A stretch of 64,000 nucleotides of DNA from contig JAKAGV010000004.1 of the NCBI GenBank assembly GCA_021815405.1, forward strand, positions 1 through 64,000, read 5' to 3'. The position numbers and the translations under genes are program-made. The notes beneath the pieces were generated by a model, which was not told the DNA's origin, did not search any database, and worked only from the letters and a program-made list of their open reading frames with translations. Shown one piece after another: positions 46,917-59,964 of the stretch (position 1 is the stretch's first letter; the number at the start of each line of letters is the position of its first letter). This DNA comes from Bacteroidota bacterium (lineage in GTDB: Bacteria; Bacteroidota; Ignavibacteria; Ignavibacteriales; Ignavibacteriaceae).

Positions 46917-48545
46917 TTATGGAATGAGAGAGCTGTTTGCATCTCCGGCGGCAATACCTTTAAAATCATCAATTACATTCTGATCTGAAATAGTTATTTG
47001 ATTATTACCTGAGAATATCCAATCGGGGATACTAAAAGATTTTATTTTATTTATAAATCTATTACTAATCATTAACGCATCGGTGCTGTTTATCTGCATG
47101 TTATTGTTAACATCTGAAGCTTTTTGCTGTAATGAATCCAATGAAATTTGGTGCAAGAAATACTTTACGACGACAAGAGCATCGGTAGAATTCACCCCGC
47201 CCCATCCGCTATTTTTTGACAGGCTGATATTATAGTTGCCGGAAGCAACATTATCAAAGCTGTATAAACCGGTGCTGTCTGTAGTAGTTGAATCAGATCC
47301 GTTAGATGAGCTTAAAACAACTTCTACATTTGATATAGGGGAATTGCGGCTATTGTCATAATAAACATGTCCGGACACTGTATAAAAAGGACCGCTGTTT
47401 AAAACAACGTTGTCTTTACCAGGGACAACATGTACTCTCACTACATAATAAGTTCCATTATAAAAAGAAGAATCGACCACAGAGCTGTTTCCTTGAGTAA
47501 TAGTTACTTCTTTCCAATTTTGCGGAACAGATATATCTATAGTCAGCGGATAATTATAGATTGATGTATCAAGAGTGCCGATGGCTGTTGAAAGTATAAT
47601 CTGGCTGTTAGTGGATGAAAGAATATTGTAAGTAAAGTTTTCTCTTTCTTTAATATAACGTGTAACATTTCCGAAAGTTGCTTCCCAAATATTATTTGAA
47701 TCTGATTCTTGCTTAACCCAATTGCATAGTTTGTCAAAGAAATAAGTTGAGCAAATGGTTGTATCGGAATTAGCAGTATCGGAAATTTGATTCCAAGGAA
47801 GGACATCATGAGCATAAAAGTTTGCCCAACCGCCGGTATTTATTGACCGGGTTAAAATATTGTCGGTATAAATGTCAAAAGCTTCATCATCTGTTGTAGT
47901 TCCTCTAGGATGGTTAAAGTAAATATCTACAGCCTGAATCTTGTAAAGATCAGCCCCGCTTATAGATGATGGATCAGAATATGCGCCGCACGAACGTGCA
48001 TTTTCATAGAATTTGGAAACTTCATTTATAACAGAATTATTATAGACGCAATATGGATATGCAAAGCTTATACATTTGTAACCCGGTATCATTTTTTCAA
48101 TGGTCATTTTTGATTGGTATAACTCATAGTCTAAAGTACCAGGTTGGTTTATACTTCCGACAGCAAGCGTATCTAACTCAGGATGTGTTATTGTGTGCGA
48201 ACCGATTTCATTTCCTTCATGAGCAAGTGAATCGTACTGCCACCAGTAGCCGTATTCCCAGTTAGGATGATCAAGGCACACTTCTCCGGTTATTAAGAAA
48301 AAAGTTGCATTGAGTCCATAAGTATTAAGAATCGGTCTTACATAGGTAAATTGACTTATTTTGGCATCATCAAAGCTCAAAGTAAATGCAGATTTTTTAT
48401 TATCAGCCCATTTAGTAACAGTTGCAGTACCGTAAGCTGATTGCTGGCGTGAAGTATTTTTTTCTTTCGCTAATGAAGTTCCTGCCACGAATAAAATAAT
48501 AGTTACAAAAACTAAAGCTAAAAAAGTCAAATGTGATTGTTTCAT
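46917..48545 (-). CDS. Secreted polysaccharide deacetylase with beta-sandwich and dockerin-like tail
   Basis: About 542 residues. I choose the ATG at 48545 because it begins a signal peptide (HLTFLALVFVTIILFVAGTS); the frame also has ATGs at 48602 and 48590, neither with a ribosome site. The NodB-type domain (about 35-290) has SFDDA with the metal Asp and GSHTITHPEL with both His, so it may remove acetyl groups from a glycan. A beta-sandwich like CarboxypepD/SdrD_B follows (YTVSGHVYYDNSRNSPISNV). The tail has two dockerin-like Ca2+ repeats (VNSTDALVVVKYF and SDVNNNMQINSTDALMISNR). It lies next to the exopolysaccharide cluster, in the opposite direction, and may trim its product. Confidence 0.82.
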   Translation of the reverse strand: MKQSHLTFLALVFVTIILFVAGTSLAKEKNTSRQQSAYGTATVTKWADNKKSAFTLSFDDAKISQFTYVRPILNTYGLNATFFLITGEVCLDHPNWEYGYWWQYDSLAHEGNEIGSHTITHPELDTLAVGSINQPGTLDYELYQSKMTIEKMIPGYKCISFAYPYCVYNNSVINEVSKFYENARSCGAYSDPSSISGADLYKIQAVDIYFNHPRGTTTDDEAFDIYTDNILTRSINTGGWANFYAHDVLPWNQISDTANSDTTICSTYFFDKLCNWVKQESDSNNIWEATFGNVTRYIKERENFTYNILSSTNSQIILSTAIGTLDTSIYNYPLTIDISVPQNWKEVTITQGNSSVVDSSFYNGTYYVVRVHVVPGKDNVVLNSGPFYTVSGHVYYDNSRNSPISNVEVVLSSSNGSDSTTTDSTGLYSFDNVASGNYNISLSKNSGWGGVNSTDALVVVKYFLHQISLDSLQQKASDVNNNMQINSTDALMISNRFINKIKSFSIPDWIFSGNNQITISDQNVIDDFKGIAAGDANSSLIP

Positions 48546-49360
48546 GTAATTCACTTTGTTGAAATCAGGTTTACTTGTATTTCTATCCATTAAATTCACC
48601 ATTAATTGAATGCGATATAGTTTCTATCGGTTTTCAAGATTTAGATTCATTTTAAGAAAAAAATATATAAATGTTACATTAAAGCTTTCTCTTCGCTTTA
48701 AAGTTTCTTTAATAACTTAACAAAAGGGCAAAAATTCAAAATATCCATTCATAGGCTAAACAATAATTAGACCAAAAGAAAACCGAAAAGGCATATCAAA
48801 GCTGAGTTTGAGGTAAGGGATAGTTTAAAACATTATAAAATTAGAAAGACGGTTTATAAGAACAAGAAACTGATAATTGAAAATTATGCAAAAGAATGAA
48901 GGCAATACAAGAGATTTTTGTTTTATGAAATAAAGTAACCAGCCAAACTTAAAATAAGGCATGGAAGTTGAAAAGTATAAGAAAATGCAAATAGAAAAAC
49001 ACTTGGATTTCTGTATTAAACGAAATAAAATAAGCCGATTACGGTGATAATTTCAATAAATTAACACGGATTTATGATAAAAATTATGTATCAGAATAAT
49101 GCGCATTCTTATAATGTACATTCAGCCCGGCTATATGATTTTCAGATAAGAAATTAGACAGAACAAGTGAAATTCTATTTAACTAAATAAAAGTCTTTTG
49201 TGGAATTGATAAGAGTAATGAGAACATTATCTCATTAAAATGAAAGAAATAAAACCAGATGCTCTGCTTAAGTCGAAAATTATATGTGACTTACAGGGCG
49301 AAGCTCTGATAAAGAAGAAATAAGGAAAAAGATTAATTAATTATTGAGTTACCGAATAAG
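48546..49360 (+). other. Divergent intergenic region upstream of the exopolysaccharide cluster
   Basis: About 760-815 bp, very AT-rich, between the divergent deacetylase gene and the SLBB gene. I see no gene. It must carry the promoters of both transcription units and may carry a regulatory leader. No repeat of the mobile-element family is present. Confidence 0.5.
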
Positions 49361-49886: not shown

Positions 49887-52112
49887 ATGCAGACTCAGGA
49901 ACCTAATCCAAGAAAATATATAATTGAATCTCCCAGGACGTTGAGAGATTATACAGGCATAGTTAATAAGAACAAAGGTATTTTTATTGCAATTACGCTG
50001 GCAATATTTGCTGCTGCTTTGGCGTATTCTTTTTACACTCCTAATAAATATAAATCGACAGCAACATTAAAAGTAACCGAAAAGCAAGAAAATATACTTC
50101 AGCAAAATTCAGAATATACATCTATTAACGGGCTTGACAGATATATTGCAAATGAAATTGGTATAATTACAAATTATAATACCAGGGAGAGGGTAGCTCA
50201 AAAGCTTTTAGACATAGTTAAAAAAAGTGGAACTGCAAACTTCAGTTTACTGGTTGAAAAAAATAATGCAAACGGTTTAGTCTTTCCTAAAAGCCAAGAA
50301 GAAATAGCGGCAGTACTTAAATCCAGCGTAGTTGTTGAGCAAGAGCCGAATATGGATGCAATTGATATAACTGCTCAATCGCCGTCTCCACTGGAAGCAG
50401 CAATTATTGCAAACACCTATGCTGAAGAATATCAAAATATAAATCTTGATAACAACCAGGGACAGTTGAGTGATTTAGAAAAATTTCTTAAACAACAAAG
50501 CGCTCAAAAATTAGCTGAATTAGACAGTGCAGAGAGTGCTCTAGCAAACTTTAAGGAGAAGGGAAAAGTAGTAGCTCTTAGTGCACAATCGAATGCTTTG
50601 ATAGAACAACTCGCGCAGCTTGAGTCGCAGAGGAACGCTACAAAACTTGACTTGATGTCATCCAATCAAGCATTGGATCTCTATAAACAGTCCCTTAGCC
50701 AGCAGAGTCCTGAATTAACAAATTATATGGAGAACCAGACTTCGCAGGCTTACATAAGTGCAATACAGAAACAAATTGCAGATCTTCAGATGAACCGGGA
50801 TATGGCTTTGGCAAATACGGATCCAAACATAGATGTAACGGCAAAAGTAAAGGAATATAATAATCAAATAAAAGATCTGGAGAATAAATTACAGGCAAGA
50901 ATAAACCAAATAAAAACCGGCGCTTATGCCAGCAGCCCTGACCAGATAAAAGATCAATCTGATAAATTAATGAATGAAGAAGTCAGGAACCGTTCGCTTA
51001 AGATCAGATTGAGTGAGCTTGATGCATTAATTGGCAGTTATAATGCGCAGCTTACAAATTTGCCAAAGGAATCGATGCAGTTAACACAGTACGAGAGGAA
51101 CGTACAATCTTTACAGCAATTATATAATCAGCTGCAGCAAAAATATCAGGAAGTAAAAATCAATGAACTCTCACAGACAGGTAATGTATATGTTCTTAGT
51201 AAAGGGCAGGTACCTGATAAGCCTGATAAACCTGTAAGAGCTTTAATAGCGTTAATAGGGCTTATAGGAGGCACGGCTTCTGCTCTGGGCTTTATATTGA
51301 TTAAAAATTACTTCACAGAAGATGAAAAATATCCTAAGTATCCTTATATACATGAAAAAGAATTTAATGATTTACCGCTGCCGGAAAATGATCCAAAACT
51401 ATTAAACTCGTCTCATAAACCTTTAATGCTGACTTTACCGCAATCCGGAAATAATGACGCTCCAAAATTAAAAAAAGGAATTCCGGAAATTGCTCCATCA
51501 AAAAATACTCAAGAAAGAATGGTTATTGTCAGTTCAGCCATGCACGGCGAAGGAAAGACTTCAATGGCAGTAAACATAGCAATTCAAAGTGCGGCTAAAA
51601 AGCAAAATACCTTATTGGTTGACTGCGATTTTAGAATGCCTATGGTTCACCAGGTTTTGAATACATTCCAGTCACCGGGACTATCAGACTATCTTTATGA
51701 TAAAGCATCGATCCAAGATATAGTTAAAGCACATCAAGAAGGCATTTACTATGTAACTGCGGGTACGGCAGTCCAGGAACCTGCCGGATTACTATCGTCA
51801 GAAAGGATTGCATATTTCTTAAATGAAGTTAAAAACTTGTTTGATTTTGTTGTTATCGTATCCGCACCTGTAATTACAGAAGATACAACCGAAGTACTAT
51901 CCAGATATGCAGACGGAATCGTGCTTGTAGTTTCTCCAAATAAAACCGACATGAGAGTAATGGCAAAGGCATTGAATATGGTGAAAGCCATGCACGCTCC
52001 ATTTCTTGGTACAGTTTATAATAATTCATACAGCCGTAGAGAAATCAGCGATGGAAATAATTACTCCCGTCAATCTCAATATCCTTTAAAGTTCAACAGC
52101 GGATGGAGATAG
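49887..52112 (+). CDS. Polysaccharide co-polymerase / BY-kinase-like protein (Wzc type)
   Basis: 741 residues. A Wzz domain with membrane segment (IFIAITLAIFAAALAYSF, about residues 32-50), a long periplasmic coiled coil (about 190-430), a second membrane segment (LIALIGLIGGTASALGFILI, about 450-470) and a cytoplasmic ATPase domain (about 540-740). Walker A has GEGKTS with Lys557; Walker A' is VDCDFRMP with Asp579 and Asp581. At Walker B, where BY-kinases have Asp followed by (S/T)PP, the chain reads VVIVSAPV, so Val658 replaces the Asp. The C-terminal tail has five Tyr in YNNSYSRREISDGNNYSRQ and nearby, the normal autophosphorylation cluster. It controls chain length and export. Confidence 0.9.
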   Translation: MQTQEPNPRKYIIESPRTLRDYTGIVNKNKGIFIAITLAIFAAALAYSFYTPNKYKSTATLKVTEKQENILQQNSEYTSINGLDRYIANEIGIITNYNTRERVAQKLLDIVKKSGTANFSLLVEKNNANGLVFPKSQEEIAAVLKSSVVVEQEPNMDAIDITAQSPSPLEAAIIANTYAEEYQNINLDNNQGQLSDLEKFLKQQSAQKLAELDSAESALANFKEKGKVVALSAQSNALIEQLAQLESQRNATKLDLMSSNQALDLYKQSLSQQSPELTNYMENQTSQAYISAIQKQIADLQMNRDMALANTDPNIDVTAKVKEYNNQIKDLENKLQARINQIKTGAYASSPDQIKDQSDKLMNEEVRNRSLKIRLSELDALIGSYNAQLTNLPKESMQLTQYERNVQSLQQLYNQLQQKYQEVKINELSQTGNVYVLSKGQVPDKPDKPVRALIALIGLIGGTASALGFILIKNYFTEDEKYPKYPYIHEKEFNDLPLPENDPKLLNSSHKPLMLTLPQSGNNDAPKLKKGIPEIAPSKNTQERMVIVSSAMHGEGKTSMAVNIAIQSAAKKQNTLLVDCDFRMPMVHQVLNTFQSPGLSDYLYDKASIQDIVKAHQEGIYYVTAGTAVQEPAGLLSSERIAYFLNEVKNLFDFVVIVSAPVITEDTTEVLSRYADGIVLVVSPNKTDMRVMAKALNMVKAMHAPFLGTVYNNSYSRREISDGNNYSRQSQYPLKFNSGWR

Positions 52113-52178: not shown

Positions 52179-53486
52179 ATGAATTTCAGCTTCACTAAAA
52201 AGAAAAAACAAGTATTCTCGTTATATTCTTCGATGATCCTCAATATTGTGTTGGGGATAGTCATCAGTATAATAACAACCAGATATTTGGGACCTAAGGA
52301 ATATGGAGTTTTTACATTTTTAGTAAACCTTTTATCTATTGTTCCGGTACTTTTTACTTTGGGTGTTTTTATAGCTACCCAAAGGTTAGTTGCACACAAT
52401 AAGTACGACAGCATACGAAAGGAGTTATTCGGGGCTGTTTTAGTTTACACACTTGTCAGCTCAATATTAATGACCATAATCATTTTTGGATATTCATTCT
52501 TTAATGATATGATGTACAAAAATAATCTCGGCGATATTATAAGAATATTGAGCCCGCTTGTAATAGCCTACCAACTGCAAGCTTGTTTAGAGAATTATCT
52601 CGCAGGTGATAATGAAATTGAATATTTATCTCTTAACAGAACCGGACCGAAATTAATTTTTCTGCTCTCATCATTTTTAATAATCACTTTAACAACTAAG
52701 AAGCTGGATGCATTCTATTTTAACCTGATACAAATGTCGGGAATGACAGCAATATACATTTACACCATCATAAAATTAAAACCGCAATTCAGCAATCTTA
52801 AGAAGAGCTTTTCAATTATATATCATGAAGTTAAAGTTTACGGAATCCATGAATATACCGGAACGATATTCGACGTCTTTACAGATAAGATAGCAGCATT
52901 TACAATATTATTTTTTCTAACATCCAAGGAAGTTGGATTTTACTCGCTTTCATGCACAATAGCAGCGCCGCTGGCACTGATTTCAGGTGTAGTTGGAACT
53001 ACATTTTATAAGGACTTTGCAAACAGCAATTCTTTACCATCGAAGCCAACTAAAGTTACAATTGCATTAGCGTTAGTTTCACTAATCGCATTTCTTCTGA
53101 TTATCGGTAAAGTCATTTTACTTTTTTATTCAAAAGCTTATGCAAATGTAATTCACCTGACTTATATAACGGCTTTCGGCTTTACATTGTGGGGAATAGC
53201 GGATTACATGAACCGGTTCCTTGGTTCACATGGGTTTGGTAAAGAGATGAGGAACGCCGCCATTTTAATAGGTATAGTGAATGTTACAGGTTTTACTGGA
53301 TTAGTATTTTTATTCGGAGTTATGGGCGCTGCAATTACAAAGCTTTTGGCGGGGGCACTCTATTTATCATCAATGATTTATTACTATTTCAAGAAACGGG
53401 AAATAATTTTAAAAGAGGGCTTTACAGAAAACATTCTTATTTCAGAAAAGCAAATAAATTTTATAACTGAAGAGGTAACAGCATGA
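52179..53486 (+). CDS. Polysaccharide flippase, Wzx-like
   Basis: 435 residues with about 12 hydrophobic segments, the layout of Wzx/PST flippases. The N-terminal MILNIVLGIVISIITTRYLG followed by PKEYGVFTFLVNLLSIVPVL is typical of the family. It should move lipid-linked repeat units to the periplasmic face of the inner membrane. The last codons overlap the start of the cupin gene by 4 bases. The start at ATG 52179 has only a weak ribosome site. Confidence 0.9.
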   Translation: MNFSFTKKKKQVFSLYSSMILNIVLGIVISIITTRYLGPKEYGVFTFLVNLLSIVPVLFTLGVFIATQRLVAHNKYDSIRKELFGAVLVYTLVSSILMTIIIFGYSFFNDMMYKNNLGDIIRILSPLVIAYQLQACLENYLAGDNEIEYLSLNRTGPKLIFLLSSFLIITLTTKKLDAFYFNLIQMSGMTAIYIYTIIKLKPQFSNLKKSFSIIYHEVKVYGIHEYTGTIFDVFTDKIAAFTILFFLTSKEVGFYSLSCTIAAPLALISGVVGTTFYKDFANSNSLPSKPTKVTIALALVSLIAFLLIIGKVILLFYSKAYANVIHLTYITAFGFTLWGIADYMNRFLGSHGFGKEMRNAAILIGIVNVTGFTGLVFLFGVMGAAITKLLAGALYLSSMIYYYFKKREIILKEGFTENILISEKQINFITEEVTA

Positions 53487-56401: not shown

Positions 56402-57697
56402 ATGATAAAAATTCAAGAGTATAAGGAAACAAATTATGAAATAATAGGAGGCTATCTTTCTATTATAGTTTTAATTCTGTTTTCGTCTTTTACCAATACC
56501 TTCTATATGGGAAATCTTACCTATAATAGCATCATTTTAGCTGCGGTACTAATAGCTTATTTAGTCAGATACAGATCCATCCCGATTATTTATTTTAAAA
56601 TAATCTTAGTTTTTATTGCTTACAATGTCATTCATTATTTAATATACCGCGACTTTCATCCATTATTCTTTTCGCGTTATTTCTTTTACATATCTCTTGC
56701 ATTCTTTACGATCAGATTTAACTTCGAAAACTTTTTCGAGAGATTGGAAAAAGTTATTTATTACGGCGCCTTGATCAGTCTTCCGTTATTTGCTATTCAA
56801 GTATTATTTTTCGGACCGTTTTATTCTGCAATGACAACACTGCAGCATCTTATGGGAATTACTTCTATTGCCCGCCATGACGGAATGTACTATGCCAATA
56901 CTTTTTTTTATACGATTAATACAAGCGGTGAAGCAAGGAATTGCGGCTTTATGTTTGAACCCGGCGCATTTGGTTCAATACTTTCTATAGCTGTCGGATT
57001 AAACCTTGTTCACACTAATTTTGATTTGAGGAATAAACGTCTTGTTGTGCTATTACTTGCTTTAGCGACTACATTTTCAACAACGGCTTTTCTTGCAGTT
57101 ACCTGCCTAATTTTATTCTATATTATTAATACAAATTTAAAAAAGGCGATTCTACTTATACCAGCCGGAGTAATTGTAATTTTAATTTTATTTCAACTGC
57201 CATTTATGTCCAAGAAGATTACAAAATTATCTTCTCATCCCGGAAAGCAGCTTACTACGACGGTCCAGATGGCAAATAATACAGACAGATTGCAATCATT
57301 AGGAAGATTTGCAGGGCTGCTGCTAAACTTTAAAGATTTTCAAAAGGCACCGTTATTTGGTCTTGGCGGACATGACATATTAAGAGTATCCGTGATTAAT
57401 CATTGGAATGTAAGCAGCGTAAACGGACTAGGAGATTATCTTGCAACTTTCGGTGCCGCGGGATTTTTATTGTTATTATTTAACTTAAGTAAAACTTTTG
57501 CAAGCGTAACGGCAGATTACAATATCAGAGGATTTTACTTTTTGGTTATTGTGGTTTTAATTGCGACATTTTCATTTGTATTGCTGCCGACTCCTTTGTT
57601 TTTTACATTCCAGATATTTTATGCAGCACGTGCAAGAGTAATCACTGAATCGCAGCTGCAAGTTATTACTAACAGGTTAAGTTACTCATCTTTTTAA
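56402..57697 (+). CDS. Polysaccharide polymerase/ligase-like membrane protein (Wzy-like)
   Basis: 431 residues with about 10-12 hydrophobic segments and a long periplasmic loop in the second half (SKKITKLSSHPGKQLTTTVQ), the layout of Wzy polymerases and O-antigen ligases. The stretch NCGFMFEPGAFGSILSIAVG is typical of Wzy/EpsK-like proteins, which vary strongly. It should join repeat units at the periplasmic face. Assignment rests on topology and context. 17 bp after the upstream gene. Confidence 0.8.
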   Translation: MIKIQEYKETNYEIIGGYLSIIVLILFSSFTNTFYMGNLTYNSIILAAVLIAYLVRYRSIPIIYFKIILVFIAYNVIHYLIYRDFHPLFFSRYFFYISLAFFTIRFNFENFFERLEKVIYYGALISLPLFAIQVLFFGPFYSAMTTLQHLMGITSIARHDGMYYANTFFYTINTSGEARNCGFMFEPGAFGSILSIAVGLNLVHTNFDLRNKRLVVLLLALATTFSTTAFLAVTCLILFYIINTNLKKAILLIPAGVIVILILFQLPFMSKKITKLSSHPGKQLTTTVQMANNTDRLQSLGRFAGLLLNFKDFQKAPLFGLGGHDILRVSVINHWNVSSVNGLGDYLATFGAAGFLLLLFNLSKTFASVTADYNIRGFYFLVIVVLIATFSFVLLPTPLFFTFQIFYAARARVITESQLQVITNRLSYSSF

Positions 57698-57728: not shown

Positions 57729-58892
57729 ATGAAAATATTAATGGTAACCAGCATACCGGAAAATTTGGATAATATTACCGGAGGTGTTGAATCAGTTACC
57801 GTTAATTTACTGCAAGGGTTTTCAGACTTAGATGTAGAATTCAACGTTATTTCTTTTAGGCTGGAAGTAAAAAAGCCGAGTGTTGTTGAGTTCTCTCCGA
57901 ATATAAAAATATTTTATTACCCCTTCCGTTATATCAAATCAATTAAACTATTCCTATTTCTTTTCGCATCTCTTACTATTAAAAAACAAGCTGAAGCGTG
58001 GCTGCCGGATATTATACATTTGCAAGGCAACGGCTCTTCTCTTTTGCAGCTTGCCAGACTCAAAAATAAAAATGTTATTATCACTCCTCATGCAGATCAA
58101 AAAGGCGAGTATAAAAATTTAACCGGATTAAAAAAGAGAATGAAGCAAAAGATATCTATTTTTATTGATCATATTGCTCTTAGAAAATTTAATAATTTTA
58201 TTTTTATTTCAGAATATTTAAGAAATTCTCTCAATAATAATAAACTACTAAATGAAGTTAAATTTCAAGATGTAATTTTTAATCCAGTCAACTCTAATTT
58301 TTTTAAAGTGAAAGATAATGAACTTAAAAATCGCTTAAATATTTTTTATGTCGGGCAAATTTCAAAAAGAAAAGGATTAATTGATTTAATAAAAGCAATA
58401 GGGGAATTAAAAAAGAAGGGAATAGTTTACAACTTAAATGTTGCTGGTGATTTCAGCGATAGTTTGTACAAAGAAGTTATATTATCAGGCATCAAGGAGA
58501 ATGGGCTAGGTTCTCAAGTTAATTTTTATGGCTGGCTTTCGCAGAATAAGATAGTTGGACTAATGGAAAATAACGGAATATTCGTTTTGCCTTCAAACCA
58601 GGAATCGCTTCCGGTTTCAATAATAGAATCAATGAGCGGCGGAAGAATAGTAATTGCAACAGAAGTCGGAGGAATTCCTGAAATAATAAGAAACGGTGAA
58701 ACAGGCTTCCTTTATAAAAAAAATGATATTAAACAACTTGTGGACATATTGGAAGCGCTTTATAATAATCCAAGCAGCTATGAAATCGTTTCCCGTAACG
58801 CAAGAAAATATGCGGAAAATAATTTTTCTTCTTTGATTGTAGCGAAGAAAACAAAAGATTTTTATTCTAAAATTGTAAACCAATATGCCTGA
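57729..58892 (+). CDS. Glycosyltransferase family 4
   Basis: 387 residues, GT-B. The N-terminal GGVESVTVNLLQGFSD is the acceptor/donor loop. The donor lobe has VGQISKRKGLIDLIKAIGEL and LPSNQESLPVSIIESMSGGR with the EX7E motif (Glu pair), then TEVGGIPEIIRNGETGFL. It transfers a sugar from a nucleotide donor, keeping configuration. It overlaps the following CapA-like gene by 8 bases. Confidence 0.92.
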   Translation: MKILMVTSIPENLDNITGGVESVTVNLLQGFSDLDVEFNVISFRLEVKKPSVVEFSPNIKIFYYPFRYIKSIKLFLFLFASLTIKKQAEAWLPDIIHLQGNGSSLLQLARLKNKNVIITPHADQKGEYKNLTGLKKRMKQKISIFIDHIALRKFNNFIFISEYLRNSLNNNKLLNEVKFQDVIFNPVNSNFFKVKDNELKNRLNIFYVGQISKRKGLIDLIKAIGELKKKGIVYNLNVAGDFSDSLYKEVILSGIKENGLGSQVNFYGWLSQNKIVGLMENNGIFVLPSNQESLPVSIIESMSGGRIVIATEVGGIPEIIRNGETGFLYKKNDIKQLVDILEALYNNPSSYEIVSRNARKYAENNFSSLIVAKKTKDFYSKIVNQYA

Positions 58893-59964
58893 TAAATCTG
58901 TGAAAGTTTCACTGGTTGGAGATATATTTCCATCTAATTTGGTTTATACCAGAAAGTTTGGAAACGGAAGTGTTTTTTTGAATGGTATAGATAATGAATG
59001 GGTTGAACAAACAAAAGATTTATTTTCACACTCGGATATTGTTTTTGGAAACCTGGAATCTCCGTTAATTAAAGATGAAGAATATGTAAATAATTCGAGT
59101 TTTGCCGGTAGTGAGAAATTTGCAAGTGTACTAAAAAATTTAGGCTTTGATATTGTCTCTGTAGCAAACAATCACATTTTAGAGCAAGGTTTCGAAGGTT
59201 TTTTAAGCACCCAAAATGCTTTAAGCAATGCAGATGTACAAAGTATCGGTATTTTTAATGATCGGAAATCTAATATCGAAGTGATTGAAAAAAATGGTTT
59301 GAAATTCGGCTTTGCTGGATTTAACGCAATCAAGGATATAGTCAATCCAAATCTGCATGCTGATCTGACTTTTGAAAATGTAGCGCGCACATTAGATGAG
59401 ATGAATACGCTTGGACTGGATTACAAGATTTTAAGTTTCCATTGGGGGAATGAGTATATAAATATTCCGTCTTATGAACAAATCAGCCTGGCACATTCAG
59501 TAATTGATTATGGAGCAGATGTAATAGTAGGGCATCACCCTCATGTTATTCAGCCCGTTGAACGATACAAGAAAGGCATTATAATTTACAGCCTTGGTAA
59601 TTTTTTATTTGATAGTCCATATTCAAAGCAGTTTAAGCTCGGGATGATGATAGAACTATTTTTCAATAAAGATGAAAAGATTGATTACCAAGCTTTTGAG
59701 GTAAAGTTGAGCCGGGATAAAATTAATTCTGTATCTCAGTCATTAAATATTCATAAGAAACTGAACAAATATGAATCTCAAATGCAGAATTTAATTTGTA
59801 CATCAAAAGACGATTACATTAAATATTATAAAAGCAAGTTAAGACAGAATCATCAATATCAGAGAATATTGATGAAAATACATCTACTGGAAATGATGCT
59901 GCTTTCAAGGAACCGGCGGCAATTAATTAAAAACGTATTCGACCGGGTCGCAGGTAATATTTAA
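58885..59964 (+). CDS. CapA-family (PGA_cap) capsule synthesis protein, metallophosphatase fold
   Basis: 359 residues. Metal-site motifs are VSLVGDIFPS, NLESPLI, VSVANNHI, FHWGNEY and GHHPHVIQ, the series found in CapA and related proteins. CapA takes part in polyglutamate capsule in Bacillus, but relatives occur in many polysaccharide clusters with unknown reaction. The protein lacks the usual N-terminal membrane anchor, so it is likely cytoplasmic. It overlaps the upstream glycosyltransferase gene and precedes another by 7 bp. Confidence 0.88.
   Translation: MPDKSVKVSLVGDIFPSNLVYTRKFGNGSVFLNGIDNEWVEQTKDLFSHSDIVFGNLESPLIKDEEYVNNSSFAGSEKFASVLKNLGFDIVSVANNHILEQGFEGFLSTQNALSNADVQSIGIFNDRKSNIEVIEKNGLKFGFAGFNAIKDIVNPNLHADLTFENVARTLDEMNTLGLDYKILSFHWGNEYINIPSYEQISLAHSVIDYGADVIVGHHPHVIQPVERYKKGIIIYSLGNFLFDSPYSKQFKLGMMIELFFNKDEKIDYQAFEVKLSRDKINSVSQSLNIHKKLNKYESQMQNLICTSKDDYIKYYKSKLRQNHQYQRILMKIHLLEMMLLSRNRRQLIKNVFDRVAGNI

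Follow-up and report, generated by a model that had tools for sequence, protein, structure and literature searches.

Can a Wzc-like polysaccharide co-polymerase still serve its pathway when the BY-kinase domain fused to it has lost the acidic residue of Walker B? This question is raised by a 741-aa protein encoded in a 64,000-nt stretch of contig JAKAGV010000004.1 from a bacterium of the Ignavibacteriaceae (assembly GCA_021815405.1), hereafter referred to as the window. Current models hold that cycles of Tyr-tail phosphorylation are essential for PCP-2 function, as reported in PMC12004946. Judging from alignments and predicted structures, we consider it likely, with a probability of roughly 0.7, that the fused BY-kinase domain of this PCP-2a co-polymerase has become a pseudokinase, probably a nucleotide-binding scaffold. 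If a fused co-polymerase has retained its nucleotide site but lacks the tail, the acid needed for catalysis and a large part of the interface motif, binding of nucleotide would be uncoupled in it from phosphotransfer, and a canonical paralogue encoded in the same genome offers an internal control.

The open reading frame and its coordinates were borne out as initially annotated (Table 1). Its product combines, on a single chain, a Wzz domain (PF02706, aa 19–107), a GNVR domain (PF13807, aa 401–474) and a cytoplasmic P-loop domain (approximately aa 541–716), which is the PCP-2a layout, and hydrophobic stretches read directly from the sequence lie at approximately aa 31–51 and 452–475. Against the eps_fam autokinase model of NCBIfam, the protein scores 106.7 bits, slightly below the model's cut-off of 108.05, and structures have been solved for relatives such as E. 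coli Wzc, VpsO, CapB and BceF. The gene is embedded in a polysaccharide cluster that encodes an SLBB protein, a Wzx-like flippase matching PF01943 above its cut-off, a cupin, an aminotransferase, several glycosyltransferases and a Wzy-like protein with a Wzy_C match below its cut-off, a context that likewise corresponds to PCP-2a. Sites resembling promoters and terminators did not exceed, in the vicinity of the gene, their number in shuffled sequences (22 versus 21.0 and 1 versus 2.8, respectively), and we therefore base no operon claim on them.

Table 1. Features of the co-polymerase gene and its neighbours (positions in the window)
Feature	Position	Strand	Basis or remark
PCP-2a co-polymerase of the Wzc type (741 aa), its BY-kinase domain degenerate	49887..52112	+	Open reading frame and domain matches
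Degraded EX2RX2R motif, aa 524–530, D-A-P-K-L-K-K	51456..51476	+	Alignment, predicted structure
BY-kinase-like domain, aa 541–716	51507..52034	+	Predicted fold
Walker A, G554-E-G-K557-T558, intact	51546..51560	+	Alignment
Walker A', D579-C-D581-F-R583, intact	51621..51635	+	Alignment
Val658 (GTA) in place of the Walker B Asp	51858..51860	+	Alignment and codon
C-terminal tail, aa 713–741, three Tyr, without Tyr cluster	52023..52109	+	Sequence, alignment
SLBB-only export-like protein, 171 aa	49361..49876	+	Ends 10 bases upstream of the co-polymerase gene
Wzx-like flippase	52179..53486	+	PF01943
Wzy-like polymerase	56402..57697	+	Weak PF04932 match below its cut-off
Polysaccharide deacetylase with type I dockerin domain	46917..48602	-	Divergent neighbour

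The initial annotation read VVIVSAPV at the position of Walker B, and codon 658 (GTA) encodes the valine. It had also proposed a comparison with relatives. We aligned 76 distinct homologues, comprising all 62 places listed by the family search (50 of the 80 genomes had a place at E <= 1e-60), L085, L003 and 12 same-order loci. Among the order-level matches, these 12, delivered as loci, were aligned and the rest, including more distant paralogues, were left out; three weak partial matches (L004–L006) were removed beforehand and a fourth (L007) was left out. Five rows carry no letters at the Walker B site. Asp occupies 69 of the 71 readable rows and Val the other two, namely the window protein and L008, its single close homologue, which comes from the same genus, is 67% identical to it and shares its changes as far as the contig reaches. 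Since L008 encodes its Val by a different codon (GTT), and since Asp prevails in 69 of 71 rows, neither chance nor a fault of assembly is enough to explain the substitution. The retention of Lys557, Asp579 and Asp581, likewise noted at the outset, was confirmed by the alignment: each of the 72 rows that can be read at these positions has G556 and K557, and the same holds for D579 and D581.

In another named set, made up of the best 80 of 116 relatives and partly overlapping the genomes of the first alignment, Asp was found in 78 of the 79 readable loci, the one Val being L097, which is L008's own record. A contig scan using a single protein returned no relatives, while rescanning with alignment A3 confirmed the 116. 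Searches of 391 genomes of the class (E <= 1e-138) and 395 of the phylum (E <= 1e-145) added no place beyond the family search; these samples of larger groups are low in power, because neither can have included the genome of L008 (G007), which would have matched. All these counts are drawn largely from draft genomes, in which an absence is weak evidence.

What the missing Asp would mean for catalysis can be judged from simulations of E. coli Wzc reported in PMC8517177, where the corresponding residue, Asp642, has a different partner in each of two states: Lys540 of Walker A when the kinase is open, and Thr541 when it is closed and coordinates Mg2+. By analogy, Val658 should be able to make neither pairing. 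As this residue of Wzc engages the Walker A Lys and, in the closed state, Thr541, lowered or lost catalysis in the window domain, the former already anticipated in the initial annotation, is well supported by inference. The domain would still bind nucleotide, while being unable to position Mg-ATP for transfer.

The C-terminal tail fared differently, as the five tyrosines originally ascribed to it come down to three. The last 51 residues contain four (Y711, Y715, Y726 and Y732), and the first of these closes the last predicted beta strand, at a position where Leu is conserved among relatives, which leaves three in the tail proper. Counted over the first 40 residues past aa 712 in 70 readable rows, the number of tail tyrosines is 8–10 in 67 rows, six in L003, three in the window protein and one in L008. 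The frame of L008 stops no more than two bases short of the end of its contig, so that 18 tail residues are visible; these span the region where most relatives already show the Tyr cluster, and a later cluster may lie beyond the contig end.

A further change, absent from the initial annotation, is the degradation of the EX2RX2R interface motif. Relatives typically read SEAFRALRTR or a near variant, and the strict motif is present in 59 of the 73 rows with letters there. The 14 non-strict rows are the window protein, L008, L073 (cut short) and 11 in which the Glu is kept but an Arg position has changed. The window protein has NDAPKLKKGI, in which D-x2-K-x2-K is a conservative echo of the original charges, interrupted by Pro, and it has lost the family-invariant Arg at position 532; L008 has NESLKLKQSN (motif ESLKLKQ) and retains the Glu. 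Considering this echo and the Glu of L008, some of the interface may survive. AlphaFold2 places the motif in a helix in the canonical control L002 (residues 19–32, block mean pLDDT 82–90), whereas residues 1–36 of the window construct are disordered, nearly all with pLDDT < 50; the missing helix may partly reflect the poor alignment of the window linker with its relatives, which lowers model confidence at the motif. EX2RX2R is reported to take part in one half of the octamer interface and the Y-cluster in the other (PMC3795738); at the level of sequence, both halves are hit in the window protein. With the Tyr cluster gone and the interface motif degraded, the original suggestion that a kept tail points to a continuing role for phosphorylation is contradicted.

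The core of the domain gives a more conservative picture. Based on alignments that took in 52 of the 71 readable rows, AlphaFold2 modelled construct residues 41–210 with a mean pLDDT of 90–98 per block of ten, and VIA-align matched the model best to the VpsO kinase domain 6u1q (Z 28.3). The kinase domains of VpsO, CapB, Wzc and Etk cover Z scores from 28.3 to 24.3, followed by BceF (21.2) and MinD-type ATPases (from 19.3), and we accordingly describe the BY-kinase fold as retained in the prediction. The predicted strand at Walker B comprises construct residues 150–154, corresponding to aa 654–658. Among the 36 kinase-domain columns that are at least 95% invariant, 23 are kept in both the window protein and L008 (including S550, G556, K557, N563, D579, D581, R583, P585 and H588), 12 are lost in both and one is changed in L008 only. 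The 12 losses are D658 of Walker B and its neighbour D667, N631, E634, A664, V665, L620, L711 and F714, together with three conservative changes near the nucleotide motifs (T549S, L564I and L582F); the PPNPxE motif of both proteins is altered. The co-polymerase part has 41 columns of this kind, of which the two proteins share 35 unchanged (21 of 25 and 14 of 16).

The two variant proteins group together at an SH-aLRT of 100, adjoining the canonical L037 and L009 at 97, in a tree of 71 rows built by a quick method from aa 1–475 only and rooted on the long branch of L003; on this tree the Walker B state changed a single time. The nearest canonical relatives (L037, L038, L009, L039 and L010) have in common RRP following Walker A' and, behind Walker B, VID where VTD is usual, which may represent an intermediate state. 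Between the window protein and L008, identity is 70.5% in the kinase domain, 69.6% in the coil and 27% in the linker. Substitution in the kinase domain amounts to a pN of 0.168 versus a pS of 0.724, from which we derive no dN/dS ratio to rely on, because synonymous sites are near saturation. As a rate control, we used the canonical pair L002 and L054, encoded in the same two genomes as the window protein and L008. Differing sites in the variant versus the canonical pair number 51/172 versus 12/173 in the kinase domain, 122/421 versus 64/420 in the co-polymerase part (aa 55–475) and 47/63 versus 7/66 in the linker. Relative to the co-polymerase part, the kinase domain has evolved faster (odds ratio 2.2, Fisher p 0.026) and so has the linker (3.5, p 0.002). 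By this sequence comparison, in which the variant is defined by two sequences, one of them (L008) incomplete at the C-terminus, the kinase domain shows some relaxation and the linker a greater degree of it, though the domain remains 70.5% identical. Considering its 70% identity between species, the key Walker A and A' residues it keeps and its confident predicted fold, the domain is not plain debris.

BY-pseudokinases have been defined as lacking key catalytic residues and/or the phosphorylated Tyr (PMC12004946). The window domain has the predicted BY-kinase fold without a key catalytic residue and without the Tyr cluster; of the features of a competent BY-kinase, it has the Walker A Lys and the A' DxD, and lacks the Walker B Asp, an intact EX2RX2R and the Tyr cluster. 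Compared with Wzc-type proteins (E. coli Wzc, VpsO and BceF), it shares Wzz, GNVR and a fused P-loop domain, the predicted fold and Walker A/A', differing from them in the same three features. EcpK of Myxococcus xanthus and HfsB of Caulobacter, BY-pseudokinases proposed as scaffolds in PMC12004946, resemble it in lacking catalytic residues and a Tyr-rich tail and in acting in Wzx/Wzy pathways, but both are stand-alone proteins, and EcpK has none of the three Walker motifs, whereas the window domain keeps Walker A and A' (PMC12004946). Fused variants are also named in that paper, among them SMc01795 of Sinorhizobium meliloti, whose kinase-like domain is joined to a co-polymerase. Two Rhizobium leguminosarum proteins described in PMC4182512 come close in different ways: PssP2 is fused and has no Y-cluster, but is described as having none of Walker A, A' and B, while PssP, reported without a C-terminal Y-cluster, is said to keep all other BY-kinase motifs, including Walker B. 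CapB1 of Staphylococcus aureus and PtkB of Bacillus subtilis are inactive duplicates of BY-kinases that occur alongside an active paralogue (PMC3795738), the arrangement proposed for the window protein; CapB1, however, is a stand-alone kinase, failure to oligomerise was tested by its authors as the cause of its inactivity, and the passages of PMC3795738 considered here mention no Walker B change. Thus, both fused and stand-alone BY-pseudokinases are already on record in these sources, and the retained Walker A/A' sets the window protein apart from EcpK and PssP2. Among titles and opening lines of abstracts on BY-kinases, pseudokinases, PCP-2a and Walker B, we recognised no description of this variant, and a search combining Ignavibacteria, tyrosine kinase and exopolysaccharide found no literature.

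Without the Tyr cluster and with a degraded interface, a pseudokinase is the simplest reading of these data. A phosphorylation-driven cycle of assembly and disassembly of the Wzc type could then not operate, and the domain would support the Wzz/GNVR part, which would serve the surrounding Wzx/Wzy cluster, either as a scaffold or as an element whose conformation depends on nucleotide; the protein probably works without phosphorylation. Kinase-dead K540M Wzc is reported to be still octameric, and kinase-null mutations of E. coli Wzc to reduce capsule drastically (PMC11986026). Because of that reduction in capsule, the Wzc model does not lead one to expect a functional co-polymerase without kinase activity, and a working kinase-dead copy would therefore have to depart from the Wzc cycle. 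A more specific and rather speculative proposal, which we hold to be unlikely, is that the co-polymerase is gated by nucleotide binding instead of Tyr phosphorylation: loss of the Asp would remove the open-state Lys–Asp lock, and the conformation or assembly state of the complex would depend on occupancy of the retained P-loop, not on phosphorylation of the tail.

That Walker A and A' are retained could also mean residual catalysis, which counts against the pseudokinase reading, and a still active kinase might have replaced the Walker B Asp with E665/D666 in ITEDTTE. Directly behind the motif, both variants have indeed gained acidic residues (TED for the window protein, TEE for L008), and their Walker A/A' is intact; however, E665 and D666 lie seven and eight positions past V658, beyond the end of the predicted strand as judged by residue position in the model, and no Tyr cluster is available for phosphorylation in cis, which makes this explanation highly improbable. 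Somewhat less remote, though still improbable, is gradual decay, with the co-polymerase under selection and the kinase domain drifting towards loss. The relative acceleration of the kinase domain over the canonical pair, and that of the linker, which is the fastest part, fit such a drift, but the frame is open in the window and, as far as its contig reaches, in L008, the domain shows the identity and the low pN (against near-saturated synonymous sites) given above, and the 23 invariant columns kept in both proteins include the nucleotide-site residues G556, K557, D579, D581 and R583.

We assign a similarly low likelihood to the window protein being a substrate or mixed-ring partner of a canonical kinase, phosphorylated in trans on the remaining tail Tyr. 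The initial annotation had raised phosphorylation by another kinase and advised looking for a second BY-kinase in the genome, and one was found: L002 is canonical, and both variant-bearing genomes hold such a copy (L002 and L054). Given L002 and the three Tyr still in the tail, phosphorylation in trans is possible, but it has lost its main support because the Tyr-rich tail is absent, and the degraded interface motif also argues against it. Moreover, L002 is just about 34–36% identical to the window protein and belongs to a different gene cluster on a different contig, and EcpK was argued, from mutant data, to be independent of the active kinases of Myxococcus (PMC12004946).

The genome of the window encodes a third, divergent co-polymerase/kinase, L003 (G000:C30:110289-112022), in an 846-aa frame; in this protein, Lys replaces the Walker A' Arg and the tail has six Tyr. 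The low-molecular-weight phosphatase family has three matches in the genome, none of them within the window. Several smaller observations concern the gene neighbourhood. The flippase of the window was looked for in the genome of L008, which sits at a contig end, and none was found. The 171-aa SLBB protein has no Poly_export match, and its sequence shows what looks like a signal peptide, together with a hydrophobic helix at the C-terminus; Poly_export matches in the genome are confined to contigs C11 and C30. Of the six contexts of relatives with visible upstream sequence, five (L052, L053, L056, L057 and L087) have an SLBB homologue immediately before the co-polymerase gene, while in the sixth, around L003 (L055), a Poly_export protein takes its place. 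The cluster also includes a protein of the PGA_cap capsule-synthesis family (58885–59964, + strand), and the divergently encoded deacetylase is 69% identical to a neighbour of L008.
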